DNA of 64,000 nucleotides from Ruegeria atlantica (GTDB lineage Bacteria; Pseudomonadota; Alphaproteobacteria; Rhodobacterales; Rhodobacteraceae), in the NCBI RefSeq assembly GCF_013033965.1, contig NZ_WQFE01000011.1:62001-126000 (forward strand), given 5' to 3'. The first letter of the stretch is position 1, and each line of letters starts with the position of its first letter. Both the position numbers and the translations under genes were made by a program. Below, one piece after another: positions 9,569 to 53,922 of this stretch. Under the pieces are notes generated by a model that worked only from the letters and a program-made list of their open reading frames with translations, did no database searches and had not been told where the DNA came from.

Positions 9569-10786
9569 ATGGCGACAGTTTCGCCCGCTTCTGATTTTGC
9601 GTCGGTGGCTGCTTCTGCGGCGGCCCCTGCCCGCACGCGCGATCCGCGCCTGGATTTCTATCGCGGCATCGCGATGTTCATCATCCTGATCGCCCACATC
9701 CCGAACGATCCCTGGGCCAAGTGGATCCCCGCCCGCTTTGGGTTCTCCGACGCGACTGAAATTTTTGTGTTCTGCTCGGGCATGGCGTCGGCGATCGCGT
9801 TCGGTGGAGCGTTCTTGCGCAAGGGGTGGTGGATGGGCACCGCCCGTGTGTCCTTCCGCATCTGGCAGGTCTACTGGGCGCATATCTGCCTGTTTTTCTT
9901 CGTAGCCATGACAATGGCCGCGCTGGACCAGTCAGGTTTGTTTGAGAAAACATATGTTTCCTCGCTGAACCTGCAGCATTTCTTCAACGATCCTGCGCCT
10001 CAGATCGTGGGGCTGTTCACACTGACCTATGTCCCGAACTATTTCGACATCCTGCCGATGTATTTGGTGGTTCTGGCGATGATGCCTCTGTTCATGGGCC
10101 TCTACCGGATCGGTTTCTGGGCTGTCGCCGCAACGTCGGTCGCGATTTGGCTGATCGCGCAATTCGATGTATTGGACCTGCCGGCAGAACCGTGGTCGGA
10201 ACGTCAGTGGTTTTTTAATCCGTTCGGCTGGCAGTTGCTGTTCTTCACCGGCTTTGCGTTTATGCGCGGCTGGATTCCCGCCCCTCCGGTATCGAAAACG
10301 CTGATCTGGGCGGCGGCGCTGTTCCTGATCTTTTCCATGCCGTTTGGGTCGTGGAAAGTGTTCACCTGGATCAACGCTGCAGCCCCCGATCTGGCGGATG
10401 AAATCCGCAAGGTCTGGCCGGTCACGAAAGAGTTCCGCGACAAGACTGATTTCGGTCTGTTCCGCTACCTGCACTTCCTTTCGCTGGCTTATCTGGGCTG
10501 GGTCGTGGCGGGTGAACACGGCCACCGCCTGATCGCAACCGGTCAGGGAGCAGCGGCCAAAGCCTGGCAGTTCCTGCTGACGGTCATCACCAAAGTCGGG
10601 CAGCAATCGCTGGCGGTTTTCGTATTTTCCATGGCAGCAGCAAGGCTTATCGGCGTTGGTCTGGACCTGAGTGGGCGGGATGTTGCCAGTGTTTTCATCG
10701 CCAACATGATTGGCTTTGCGATGATCATCGGCGTGGCATACATGGCCGCTTGGTTTAAGTCACAACCCTGGAAGTCTAAGAAATGA
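9569..10786 (+). CDS. opgC: OpgC-type membrane acyltransferase
   Basis: A 405-residue polytopic inner-membrane protein with about ten hydrophobic segments. The RDPRLDFYRGIAMFIILIAH opening after a 23-residue Ala-rich leader is the hallmark of the OpgC/acyltransferase 3-like family; OpgC adds succinyl groups to osmoregulated periplasmic glucans in related bacteria. AAGGAC lies 9 bases ahead of the ATG. It overlaps opgG by 4 bases (ATGA at 10783-10786), so opgC, opgG and opgH form one translational unit, which supports the assignment. Confidence 0.85.
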   Translation: MATVSPASDFASVAASAAAPARTRDPRLDFYRGIAMFIILIAHIPNDPWAKWIPARFGFSDATEIFVFCSGMASAIAFGGAFLRKGWWMGTARVSFRIWQVYWAHICLFFFVAMTMAALDQSGLFEKTYVSSLNLQHFFNDPAPQIVGLFTLTYVPNYFDILPMYLVVLAMMPLFMGLYRIGFWAVAATSVAIWLIAQFDVLDLPAEPWSERQWFFNPFGWQLLFFTGFAFMRGWIPAPPVSKTLIWAAALFLIFSMPFGSWKVFTWINAAAPDLADEIRKVWPVTKEFRDKTDFGLFRYLHFLSLAYLGWVVAGEHGHRLIATGQGAAAKAWQFLLTVITKVGQQSLAVFVFSMAAARLIGVGLDLSGRDVASVFIANMIGFAMIIGVAYMAAWFKSQPWKSKK

Positions 10787-49481: not shown

Positions 49482-51755
49482 ATGTCGGATACACCCAGCC
49501 TGCGGCAGGCAGCGCTTGAATATCACGCCCACCCAAAGCCCGGTAAGCTAGAAATCAAAGCGACAAAACCAATGGCAAACGGCCGCGATCTCGCGCGGGC
49601 CTACTCTCCCGGAGTGGCCGAGGCCAGCCTCGAAATCAAAGCCGATCCTGCCAATGCCGAGCTTTATACCGCGCGCGGAAACCTCGTGGCAGTCGTCTCG
49701 AACGGCACAGCGGTTTTGGGGTTGGGAAACATCGGCGCGCTTGCCTCGAAGCCTGTGATGGAAGGCAAAGCCGTTCTGTTCAAGAAATTCGCCGGGATTG
49801 ATTGCTTTGACATCGAGGTCGATCAACCCGACCCCGAGAAACTGGCGGATATCGTTTGCGCGCTTGAACCGACCTTTGGCGCGATCAATCTCGAAGACAT
49901 CAAAGCGCCAGACTGTTTCGTTGTGGAAAAGCTATGCCGGGAACGGATGAACATTCCGGTTTTCCACGACGACCAGCACGGCACCGCGATCGTTGTGGGT
50001 GCCGCGGCCAAGAATGCGCTTCACGTTGCCGGCAAGAAATTCGAAGACGTTAAAGTGGTCTCAACCGGCGGCGGGGCAGCGGGAATTGCCTGTCTGATGA
50101 TGTTGGTCAAACTGGGCGTCAAGCGCGAGAACATCTGGCTATGTGACATTCACGGGCTTGTCTACGAAGGTCGCGAAGAGGATATGAACCCGCACAAGGA
50201 CCAATTCGCGCAAAAAACGGACCTGCGCACGTTGGACGACGTGATCGGAGATGCAGACCTGTTCCTTGGCCTCAGCGGGCCGAACGTCCTGAAACCCGAG
50301 ATGGTTGAGAAAATGGCAAAGCGCCCGATCATCTTCGCTCTGGCCAACCCGACGCCGGAAATCCTGCCGCAGGCCGCGCGCGAGGTTGCACCGGATGCAA
50401 TCATTGCTACCGGTCGCAGCGATTTTCCCAATCAGGTCAACAACGTACTGTGTTTTCCCTTTATCTTCCGGGGCGCTCTGGATGTGGGGGCGACCGAGAT
50501 CAATGACGAAATGCAGATCGCCTGCGTGGACGGTATCGCCGAGATGGCCCGCGCTACCACCAGCGCCGAGGCTGCAGCGGCGTACAAGGGTGAGCAACTG
50601 ACTTTTGGCCCAGATTACCTGATCCCCAAACCCTTTGACCCGCGCCTTGTTGGCGTGGTGTCCTCGGCCGTGGCCAAAGCTGCGATGGAAAGCGGCGTCG
50701 CCAAGCGCCCGATCGACGACATCGAGGCCTATAAAGAGAAGTTGAACCAAACCGTATTCAAGTCGGCCCTGCTTATGCGCCCGGTCTTTGAGGCGGCGGC
50801 AGTGGCTTCGCGCCGGATCGTGTTTGCCGAGGGTGAAGATGAGCGTGTTCTGCGTGCCGCACAGGCGATCCTTGAGGAAACCACCGAAACTCCGATCCTG
50901 ATTGGCCGCCCCGAAGTGATCAATGCCCGCTGCGAAAAGTTGGGTCTGACGGTGCGGCCGGGTAAGGATTTCCAGATCGTGAACCCACATGACGACCCAC
51001 GGTATTACGACTACTGGAATTCGTATCACGAGATCATGCAGCGCCGCGGTGTTACGCCGGATCTGGCCAAGGCAATCATGCGCACGAACAACACCGCCAT
51101 TGCTGCCATCATGGTGCAAAGGGGCGAGGCAGACAGCATGATCTGCGGCACTTTTGGCGAGTATCGTTGGCACCTGAACTACGTCGATCAGGTTCTGGGC
51201 GATGGCGATCTGCACCCGCATGGCGCGCTGTCGCTGATGATCCTGGAGGACGGACCGCTGTTCATCGCCGATACCCATGTTCGGCAGCTGCCAACCCCCG
51301 AAGAGCTGGCCGAGTCGACCATTGGCGCCGCGCGCCATGTTCGGCGGTTCGGAATCGAACCCAAAATCGCTTTCTGTTCTCAATCGCAATTTGGCAATCA
51401 ATCCGAAGGTTCGGGCAAGCGTTTACGGGCGGCAATAGATATCCTCGACTCTGAGCCGCGTGATTTCACATATGAGGGTGAAATGAACCTGGATCTTGCA
51501 CTGGACCCTGAGCTGCGTTCGCGGATCTTCCCGAATTCGCGCCTGACGGGGGCGGCCAACGTTCTGATTTTCGCCCATGCAGATGCGGCCAGCGGAGTGC
51601 GCAATATCCTCAAGATGAAAGCCGATGGTCTGGAGGTTGGCCCGATCCTGATGGGCATGGGCAACAAGGCGCATATCGTGACACCCTCGATCACGGCGCG
51701 CGGCTTGCTGAACATGGCAGCAATCGCGGGCACCCCGGTTGCGCATTACGGTTAG
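49482..51755 (+). CDS. maeB: NADP-dependent malic enzyme, MaeB type
   Basis: A 757-residue enzyme converting malate to pyruvate with CO2 and NADPH. The N-terminal 430 residues are the malic enzyme proper ([55 protein letters not shown](P) loop [10 protein letters not shown]); the C-terminal 320 residues are a phosphotransacetylase-like domain ([20 protein letters not shown]), regulatory in this family. The C-terminal domain lets acetyl-CoA modulate activity in studied homologues. ATG 49482 has GAGGAG 11 bases upstream. Ends at the terminator 51776-51802. Confidence 0.95.
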
Positions 51756-51775: not shown

Positions 51776-51802
51776 AGGGCGCCAACATCGGCGCCCTTTT
51801 TT
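51776..51802 (+). terminator. Rho-independent terminator of maeB
   Basis: GGGCGCC / GGCGCCC 7-bp stem (51777-51783 and 51790-51796), extended by an A-T pair, with a 6-base loop and a six-T tail. It lies 20 bases after the maeB stop and separates it from prpE. Confidence 0.9.
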
Positions 51803-51823: not shown

Positions 51824-51944
51824 TTTGCACGACAAAATATTCAACTTTGCAAAAACTCGAAAATAGTCGCAAAAAACCAGCAAAAAGACATGAATTTGCA
51901 AAAATTTGCAGGCTTTCTTACGGAATCTTGCAAATTTTTTGCGG
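51824..51944 (+). promoter_or_regulatory. Repeated TTTGCAAA half-sites upstream of prpE
   Basis: An AT-rich leader with TTTGCA at 51824, TTTGCAAA at 51846, a tandem TTTGCAAA/TTTGCAGG at 51895 and 51905, and CTTGCAAA/TTTTGCGG at 51927 and 51937. In the last two pairs the units start 10 bases apart. This resembles the site recognised by ScfR-family short-chain acyl-CoA regulators such as PccR of Rhodobacter sphaeroides (recalled, not checked). The -10/-35 elements are not clear. Confidence 0.6.
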
Positions 51945-51961
51945 TAAAGTGACGCTCCGTC

Positions 51962-51983
51962 ACACCGCTCGCTTGTGCGGTGT
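51962..51983 (+). other. Hairpin in the prpE leader
   Basis: ACACCGC / GCGGTGT 7-bp perfect stem with an 8-base loop, 50 bases ahead of the prpE start. It could be part of the 5' untranslated region; no T tail, so not a terminator. Confidence 0.4.
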
Positions 51984-52018
51984 CTCTCGGCCACATAACA
52001 CATTTCTCCAAGAGTTTT

Positions 52019-52032: not shown

Positions 52033-53922
52033 GTGGCTTATCAGGACGTTTACGAAGGTTGGAAATCAGACCCAGAGGCATTTTGGATGGATGCCGCAAA
52101 GGCGATCGACTGGGTTCAACCGCCGACCAAAGCCCTGTTTGACGAAAACGCCCCCCTGTATGAATGGTTCGGCGACGCCAAAGTGAACACCTGCTGGAAC
52201 GCGGTCGACCGGCATGTCGAAAAAGGACGGGGTGAGCAGACCGCCATCATCTATGACAGCCCAATCACACACACCAAGCGCGAGATTTCTTATGTCGAGC
52301 TGCGCAATCGCGTGGCCACGCTGGCCGGAGCACTGCGGGCCAAGGGTATCGAAAAGGGCGACCGTGTCATCATCTATATGCCGATGATCCCCGAAGCCTT
52401 GGAAGCCATGCTCGCCTGCGCCCGACTGGGTGCCGTACATTCGGTCGTGTTCGGCGGCTTTGCCAGCAACGAACTGGCCGTACGGATCGACGACGCCAGG
52501 CCTAAGGCGATCATCGCCGCCTCCTGCGGGATGGAGCCGGGGCGCGTCGTGCACTACAAGCCGCTGCTGGATGGGGCCATAGACATGGCCAGCCATAAAC
52601 CCGAATTCTGCGTGATCTTCCAGCGTGAACAGGAAGTGGCCCAGCTGATCGAGGGTCGCGACTATAACTGGCACGGCTTTCAATACGGCGTCGAACCGGC
52701 AGAATGCGTGCCGGTCGACGGCAATCACCCGGCGTATATCCTGTACACATCTGGCACGACCGGTGCTCCCAAGGGCGTTGTGCGCCCAACAGCAGGCCAT
52801 TTGGTCGCTCTGAACTGGACGATGAAGAACATTTATGATGTCGATCCGGGCGATGTCTTCTGGGCGGCCTCGGACGTGGGCTGGGTCGTGGGGCATTCCT
52901 ATATCTGCTACGCGCCATTGATCCACGGAAACACGACGATTGTGTTTGAAGGCAAGCCCGTCGGCACCCCCGATGCAGGTACTTTCTGGCGGGTGATTTC
53001 CGAACATAAGGTCAAAAGCTTCTTCACCGCCCCAACCGCCATCCGTGCCGTCAAACGCGAAGATCCCAAGGGCGAGATGTTGGCGAAGTACGACCTATCC
53101 TGCCTGCGCGCCTTGTATCTGGCAGGTGAGCGCGCCGACCCCGACACGATCGAATGGGCTCAGGACGCACTAAAGGTTCCGGTGATCGACCACTGGTGGC
53201 AGACCGAAACCGGCTGGACCATCGCAGGCAACCCTCTGGGAATTGAGGAACTGCCGATCAAGCTGGGCTCGCCCGCCAAACCGATGCCGGGCTATGATGT
53301 GCAGATTTTGGATGAAGGCGGTCATCCGATGAAACCCGGTGAGCTGGGTGCAATTGCGGTCAAGCTTCCCCTGCCCCCCGGTACTCTGCCGACGCTTTGG
53401 AATGCCGAGGAGCGGTTCAAAAGTTCCTACCTGAATCAGTTCCCCGGATTCTACGAAACCGGCGACGCAGGCATGATTGATGAAGATGGCTATCTCTACA
53501 TCATGGCGCGGACGGATGACGTGATCAACGTCGCGGGTCACCGTCTGTCGACCGGTGGGATGGAAGAGGTTCTGGCTGCTCACCCCGACGTCGCTGAATG
53601 TGCCGTGATCGGCGTGACAGACCAGTTAAAAGGTCAAATGCCGGTGGGCTTCCTCTGTCTGAACGCGGGCTGCGACCGCGACCATGGCGAAGTCGTTCAG
53701 GACGTGGTCAAACTGGTACGTGAAAAGATCGGACCAGTTGCCGCGTTCAAACTGGCCGTTGTGGTCGACCGCCTTCCCAAGACACGGTCAGGCAAGATCC
53801 TGCGTGGAACGATGGTGTCGATTGCAGACAGCAAGGAATACAAGATGCCAGCGACCATTGATGATCCCGCCATTCTGGACGAAATCACTGACGCGTTAAA
53901 ATCTATTGGCTACGCGCAATAA
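52033..53922 (+). CDS. prpE: Propionyl-CoA synthetase
   Basis: A 629-residue acyl-adenylate enzyme of the PrpE/acetyl-CoA synthetase group, activating propionate to propionyl-CoA with ATP and CoA. The N-terminal AYQDVYEGWKSDPEAFW is typical of PrpE. YTSGTTGAPKGVV (about 238) binds ATP, HWWQTETGW and TGDAGMIDEDGYLYI bind adenylate, and K588 in TRSGKILRGT is the C-terminal catalytic Lys. It starts with GTG and an excellent Shine-Dalgarno. It stands alone, with TTTGCAAA sites in its leader, fitting control by propionate. Confidence 0.92.
   Translation: MAYQDVYEGWKSDPEAFWMDAAKAIDWVQPPTKALFDENAPLYEWFGDAKVNTCWNAVDRHVEKGRGEQTAIIYDSPITHTKREISYVELRNRVATLAGALRAKGIEKGDRVIIYMPMIPEALEAMLACARLGAVHSVVFGGFASNELAVRIDDARPKAIIAASCGMEPGRVVHYKPLLDGAIDMASHKPEFCVIFQREQEVAQLIEGRDYNWHGFQYGVEPAECVPVDGNHPAYILYTSGTTGAPKGVVRPTAGHLVALNWTMKNIYDVDPGDVFWAASDVGWVVGHSYICYAPLIHGNTTIVFEGKPVGTPDAGTFWRVISEHKVKSFFTAPTAIRAVKREDPKGEMLAKYDLSCLRALYLAGERADPDTIEWAQDALKVPVIDHWWQTETGWTIAGNPLGIEELPIKLGSPAKPMPGYDVQILDEGGHPMKPGELGAIAVKLPLPPGTLPTLWNAEERFKSSYLNQFPGFYETGDAGMIDEDGYLYIMARTDDVINVAGHRLSTGGMEEVLAAHPDVAECAVIGVTDQLKGQMPVGFLCLNAGCDRDHGEVVQDVVKLVREKIGPVAAFKLAVVVDRLPKTRSGKILRGTMVSIADSKEYKMPATIDDPAILDEITDALKSIGYAQ

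Follow-up and report, generated by a model that had tools for sequence, protein, structure and literature searches.

A conserved array of TTTGCAAA-type boxes in front of prpE in Ruegeria atlantica, a predicted target of a PccR-like regulator

Introduction

The closest described counterparts of the locus reported here are regulators of the ScfR family and their target genes. PccR is an activator in Rhodobacter (Cereibacter) sphaeroides, where it acts at pccB (PMC10370305, PMC12632250). Deletion of pccR in R. capsulatus impairs growth on propionate, and deletion of the PccR-like Pden_4472 in Paracoccus denitrificans left growth, as well as the ccr and icl reporters, unchanged under the conditions tested (PMC10370305). 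RamB of P. denitrificans (class 2) is an ScfR-family activator that needs two upstream boxes (PMC10370305). In Mycobacterium tuberculosis, the sites of PrpR are paired TTTGCAAA palindromes, one perfect and one imperfect, with 1 bp between them and a footprint of 25 bp (PMC3420887). PrpR is a tetramer, its residue Phe155 selects the acyl-CoA, and a Trp occupies this propionyl-CoA-sensing position in R. sphaeroides PccR (PMC6765138).

In the titles, abstract openings and passages of the literature that were available, prpE was not found named as a target of PccR, and an earlier prediction is possible. The available parts of PMC6023979 and PMC11891233 carry PccR in the reference list only, and PMC7083601 proved to be a false lead as a source on PccR, the name there being that of promoters. 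This study describes a conserved array of TTTGCAAA-type boxes in the prpE leader of Ruegeria atlantica, together with the regulator that is predicted to act on it.

Results

The window, which is the whole 64-kb stretch of DNA that was analysed, contains the following features around the prpE leader. Counts given for the genus refer to the 30 best-matching leaders of 54 genomes, that of the window included; prpE was present in all 54 of the genus genomes searched.

49482-51755, plus strand: maeB, the upstream gene, an NADP-dependent malic enzyme-phosphotransacetylase fusion (best match NF009501)
51776-51797, plus strand: terminator-like hairpin with a T run, lying after maeB and before the array
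51824-51831, plus strand: weak outlying half-site, TTTGCACG, 22 bp upstream of site A
51846-51853, no strand assigned: site A, TTTGCAAA, within one mismatch in 30/30 best genus leaders
51895-51902, no strand assigned: site B, again TTTGCAAA, 49 bp downstream of A, exact in 30/30 best genus leaders
51905-51912, plus strand: site B', TTTGCAGG, starting 10 bp after B
51927-51934 with 51938-51945, no strand assigned: site C, CTTGCAAA, 32 bp after B, with its partner TTTGCGGT 11 bp on
51950-51962, no strand assigned: TGACGCTCCGTCA dyad, downstream of site C and upstream of the promoter, with TGACGC in 30/30 and the dyad itself in 21/30 best genus leaders
51962-51983, plus strand: 7-bp hairpin ACACCGC-N8-GCGGTGT, not conserved
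51972-51999, plus strand: likely prpE promoter, CTTGTG, 16 bp, CATAAC
52033-53922, plus strand: prpE, propionate--CoA ligase, 629 aa, GTG start (best NCBIfam matches are two propionate--CoA ligase models)

As read directly from the sequence, the whole array lies between the terminator-like hairpin of maeB and the start of prpE. This hairpin is weak on its own, since one was found against 0.7 expected in shuffles. The maeB product reached 1019 bits against NF009501, below the curated cut-off of 1178. The best matches of the prpE product, NF007815 (732 bits, cut-off 955) and TIGR02316 propion_prpE (695 bits, cut-off 827), were also below their cut-offs; a preliminary description of this DNA had placed a propionyl-CoA synthetase after the array. 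The closest named prpE shares 96% identity with that of the window. The GTG start of the window's prpE is found in 18 of the 30 best genus leaders in all (own included), with ATG in most others. Of 31 Rhodobacterales loci drawn from the best 80 prpE loci, 24 have a relative of maeB no more than 3 kb ahead of prpE.

The same description had counted at least four TTTGCAAA-type units before prpE, and direct reading confirmed these as A, B, B', and C with its partner. It had also seen two pairs with a 10-base step, which is correct for B and B' (10 bp) but not for the second pair (11 bp). Exact copies of TTTGCAAA in the whole 64-kb window number only two, at 51846 and 51895, and copies with at most one mismatch are not enriched across the window (26 against 29.65 expected). 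Within the 260-bp leader, 5000 dinucleotide shuffles gave p values of 0.043 for three copies within one mismatch, 0.0034 for two exact octamers, and 0.0004 for five TTTGC half-sites. The array is real, its conservation being the decisive evidence.

Throughout the 30 best genus leaders, A and B stand at fixed positions, while site C is present within one mismatch in 24, and TTTGCACA occupies the position of the outlying half-site in two. At the level of the family, the A-B pair pattern occurred in 89 of 295 genomes and a reversed control pattern in one. Thirty of the family pair loci were examined; prpE lay 173-216 nt downstream in 23, and the remaining seven gave no match to prpE, pccA, pccB, PccR or maeB. 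An A-B-like pair was also seen at L181 1501-1556, before an ORF that resembles an acyl-CoA ligase by eye and that gave no prpE match at 1e-8. Among 67 distinct leaders selected for the A-B pair, a selection in which the +10 and +32/+33 positions played no part, TTTGC was found 10 bp after B in 51, site C (TGCAAA) at +32 or +33 from B in 58, and a second unit 8 bp upstream of site A in 26.

For the wider comparison, a prpE search of genome contigs was carried out and the best 80 loci among the matches listed were used. These provided 32 Rhodobacterales leaders, consisting of the window's own, 30 loci with genomes, and L022 (L061, which has no leader, was left out). Exact octamers were found in 19 of the 32, against a mean of 0.82 and a maximum of 4 in 200 shuffles; the mean number of exact copies in shuffles was 0.83. 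At least two octamers within one mismatch were present in 20, usually at about -187, -138 and -106 relative to the start codon, and the array was missing in the other 12. No exact octamer was found in the leaders of the 48 non-Rhodobacterales loci among the best 80 (350 bases each where present, and only 48 bases in L063). The octamers are still there in leaders of high GC content, 0.65-0.70 (G022, G027). That prpE has a conserved operator array is well supported.

Downstream of the array, CTTG ... TAACA is the likely promoter of prpE, as these elements are kept in leader alignments read by eye; a consensus promoter scanner made no call at prpE. The 7-bp hairpin, which overlaps the likely -35 box, is present in the window as the preliminary description had it, but conservation speaks against it: a stem of at least 7 bp was found in the tested stretch of only two of the 30 best genus leaders, the window's own and, with a different stem, L222. 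As it is not conserved, it was dropped as a functional element and is probably incidental. The TGACGCTCCGTCA dyad is rare outside the genus set (1/32 and 0/23 of wider leader sets), and may belong to another regulator.

The genome (4.67 Mb, 99.97% complete) encodes two ScfR-domain proteins, one of them full-length, with PF09856 at 235.6 bits plus HTH_3 and Peptidase_M78 domains; a second full-length ScfR regulator was not found in it. The ScfR-family gene that had been suggested as something to look for in this genome is present, full-length, and one gene from pccB. The intervening gene encodes an MFS transporter, and a biotin carboxylase gene (pccA) lies beyond pccB. We take the names pccA, pccB and PccR in this genome from gene order. 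The pccB product reached 785 of 999 bits against TIGR01117, which fits a carboxyltransferase, the model not naming pccB, and the pccA product matched biotin carboxylase models, none of which names pccA. The sole NCBIfam match of the PccR-like protein at 1e-30 or better was the RamB model NF038139 (435 bits; cut-off, 700), and no PccR model was among its NCBIfam matches, so the name PccR is based on the neighbourhood and on a Trp residue and not on a curated model. The protein aligns to structures of M. tuberculosis PrpR (about 1e-89, residues 73-470) and has W in PWEEVRDFF where PrpR has F (PFEEVRDFF). We infer from a construct ending at 486 that this Trp aligns with the Phe155 position of PrpR. 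The full-length ScfR protein is very probably the regulator of the prpE array.

Related boxes were found in front of the genes of this putative regulon. The pccB leader of the genome contains TTGGCAATAGTTTGCAAATTTGCC, whose exact octamer stands 84 bases ahead of the start, and the pccR leader contains TTTGCAAAG, between a CTTG box and the start. Exact octamers were present in 25 of 30 pccB leaders and in 26 of 30 pccR leaders (own included in both), where shuffles gave means of 0.63 and 0.26 exact copies, respectively. A comparison of the sites before pccB and prpE, as the preliminary description had advised, thus revealed the same octamer at pccB, pccR and prpE in many relatives. Its view of prpE as a further predicted target of an ScfR/PccR regulon is supported by these shared octamers and by the ScfR gene lying one gene from pccB.

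The distances between boxes varied with the gene. Common values were mostly 8, 32 and 40 bp at pccB, mostly 20-22 bp and also 30 bp at pccR, and 8, 10, 32-33 and 48-50 bp at prpE, with the 32-bp step being common to prpE (B-C, 32-33 bp) and pccB. The sites of PccR reportedly have the spacing TTTGCAAA-X4-TTTGCAAA (12 bp), as against 10 and 11 bp for the prpE pairs, but this spacing is unusable as a criterion here, because the distances in the pccB leaders of 30 genomes are mostly the 8, 32 and 40 bp just given. The 10-base phasing proposed for prpE applies at B, where it recurs in the 51 of 67 A-B leaders, but not at the second pair, and no single spacing marks prpE; the idea of a departure from a single fixed spacing for PccR was abandoned, since the pccB and pccR leaders vary too. 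In the window's genome, with promoters read by eye, the boxes at both pccB and prpE stand upstream of the likely -35, the last octamer preceding CTTTG by 22 bp at pccB and CTTG by 45 bp at prpE, as counted by eye; this upstream position fits activation.

At pccR, 18 of 30 leaders have the octamer between the CTTG and the TA box (own: L013 8917-8960). An octamer inside the pccR core promoter suggests that PccR may repress its own promoter.

A search of the genome for TTTGCAAA-N0-30-TTTGC gave 15 matches, four of them at pccB or prpE, while a control pattern gave eight. The other matches inspected were inside ORFs or near seemingly unrelated genes (by eye, from translations) and, given also the yield of the control, no further propionyl-CoA target is claimed. 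An 18-bp pattern with up to three mismatches recovered strong dyads before a seeming sugar ABC transporter and repeated ones on contig C46, and these were set aside as LacI-type operators. The former, at L014 about 9599-9670 (G000:C1:671098-671169), are two 18-bp dyads of type TTTGCATACGTWTGCAAA, separated by 54 bp and close to a sugar ABC transporter operon, as it seems by eye, and dyads of this type resemble LacI-family operators. The latter are repeated dyads close to TTTGCAACCGGTTGCAAA (G000 contig C46, near 34945, 38336, 49086 and 50139), apparently another operator family.

Array and regulator tend to occur together. With a threshold of E at most 1e-160, a PccR ortholog was detected in 238 of the 295 family genomes; 87 had both the A-B pair and PccR, two the pair only, 151 PccR only, and 55 neither (Fisher p 9e-8, with genomes counted as independent despite their kinship). 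The two genomes with the pair only were G091, whose examined pair has no prpE next to it, and G310, which is 73% complete. Of the 12 array-less Rhodobacterales genomes from the best 80 prpE loci, 11 still encode a PccR-like protein (63-81% identity). Control of prpE by PccR is therefore not universal, as 12 of 32 leaders are without the array and all but one of these come from genomes with a PccR-like protein.

Discussion

The stretch 51824-51945 is, with a probability that we put at roughly 0.8, the operator of prpE, where PccR together with propionyl-CoA would bind the TTTGCAAA-type boxes and activate prpE, and PccR would also limit its own synthesis. The sites, their conserved spacing, one full-length candidate regulator, and the same boxes at pccB and pccR are observed. 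Provided that the candidate is a true PccR, it would bind clusters A, B/B' and C, upstream of the CTTG ... TAACA promoter, and with propionyl-CoA as its ligand it would activate rather than repress prpE, by analogy with PccR at pccB in R. sphaeroides. The octamer in the pccR core promoter would be the element through which PccR limits its own synthesis. In R. pomeroyi, prpE varied between 0.54-fold (a flagged entry) and 1.97-fold in one table row of PMC9769926, which does not address propionate and is neutral on control by PccR.

The sign of control might be the opposite, with PccR binding the array and repressing prpE, or with the ligand releasing PccR. In M. tuberculosis, the related RamB acts as a repressor of icl1 (PMC6765138), and the octamer between the CTTG and TA box of the 18 pccR leaders occupies a repressor-like position, so a member of this family need not always activate. 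Repression at prpE is nevertheless unlikely: the three clusters are upstream of the likely -35 (the last site ends at 51945, CTTG is at 51972), like those of pccB in the same genome, and in R. sphaeroides PccR has been described as activating that pathway (PMC10370305).

It is less probable still that the sites belong not to PccR but to the second ScfR-domain protein of the genome:

L015 16402-17697 (around G000:C3:142416), minus strand: divergent 431-aa protein of the ScfR-domain type, with an HTH and a partial ScfR domain and without an M78-like domain

This protein is encoded on the same contig, and a comparable weak second ScfR match is found in many relatives. However, it scores 44 bits on PF09856 against 236 for the full-length protein, its neighbours seem by eye to be a response regulator and a sensor kinase of the transporter-linked kind, and the octamer is present at pccR itself and at the nearby pccB. 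Another reading is that the octamers arose by chance in AT-rich upstream DNA serving as a UP element or as an RNA device built on a hairpin. The leader's GC content of 0.45 and the 7-bp hairpin could be cited for it, yet it is highly improbable, because octamers occur far above dinucleotide shuffles and at fixed distances, also in the high-GC leaders, and the hairpin is not conserved.

If PccR does act at prpE, a small regulon would extend from propionyl-CoA use (pcc) to the activation of propionate and acrylate (prpE), and the gene making propionyl-CoA would share a sensor with the genes consuming it. The PrpE of Ruegeria converts acrylate from DMSP cleavage to acryloyl-CoA (PMC7157515; acrylate activation also in PMC5651017), so PccR at prpE would couple acrylate handling to the propionyl-CoA sensor, and would bear on how marine bacteria deal with a toxic by-product of the DMS pathway.

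A more elaborate and distinctly tentative proposal is that PccR runs a feed-forward loop in the marine members of the Rhodobacteraceae. In this loop, propionyl-CoA, also when it comes from DMSP-derived acrylate via PrpE and AcuI, would switch on prpE through a three-cluster array. One PccR tetramer would span boxes that are 32 bp, or three helical turns, from each other, as in the pccB module but about two turns further from the promoter, and PccR would shut off its own promoter. The bridging is speculative and borrowed from PrpR: as that protein is a tetramer, one PccR tetramer could likewise span boxes three turns apart. Through such a loop, what becomes of the acrylate released by DMSP cleavage would be linked to the propionyl-CoA sensor. 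Genera that have all retained a PccR-like gene but differ in having the array lend themselves to natural comparisons.

The locus can be set against three known systems. In the case of P. denitrificans RamB, the boxes are 18 bp apart and the described target belongs to the glyoxylate cycle (PMC10370305), and, unlike there, a second full-length ScfR was not found in the present genome. M. tuberculosis PrpR, the activator of the methylcitrate cycle, is a member of the same regulator family and also uses paired TTTGCAAA, but its units are spaced by 9 bp, as opposed to 10 and 11 bp at prpE here, and the targets given in the available part of PMC3420887 are prpDC and icl1, not prpE. As in the PccR-pccB system of R. 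sphaeroides, a PccR-like regulator gene is found near pccB, and TTTGCAAA-type boxes lie upstream of a propionyl-CoA gene; the B-C distance at prpE is moreover the 32 bp seen in many of the pccB leaders compared here. The differences from that system are that prpE makes propionyl-CoA, which pccB uses, and that prpE has three clusters with 10-bp and 11-bp pairs. As a predicted target prpE is new, while the regulator family is a known one and the system is not of a new kind.
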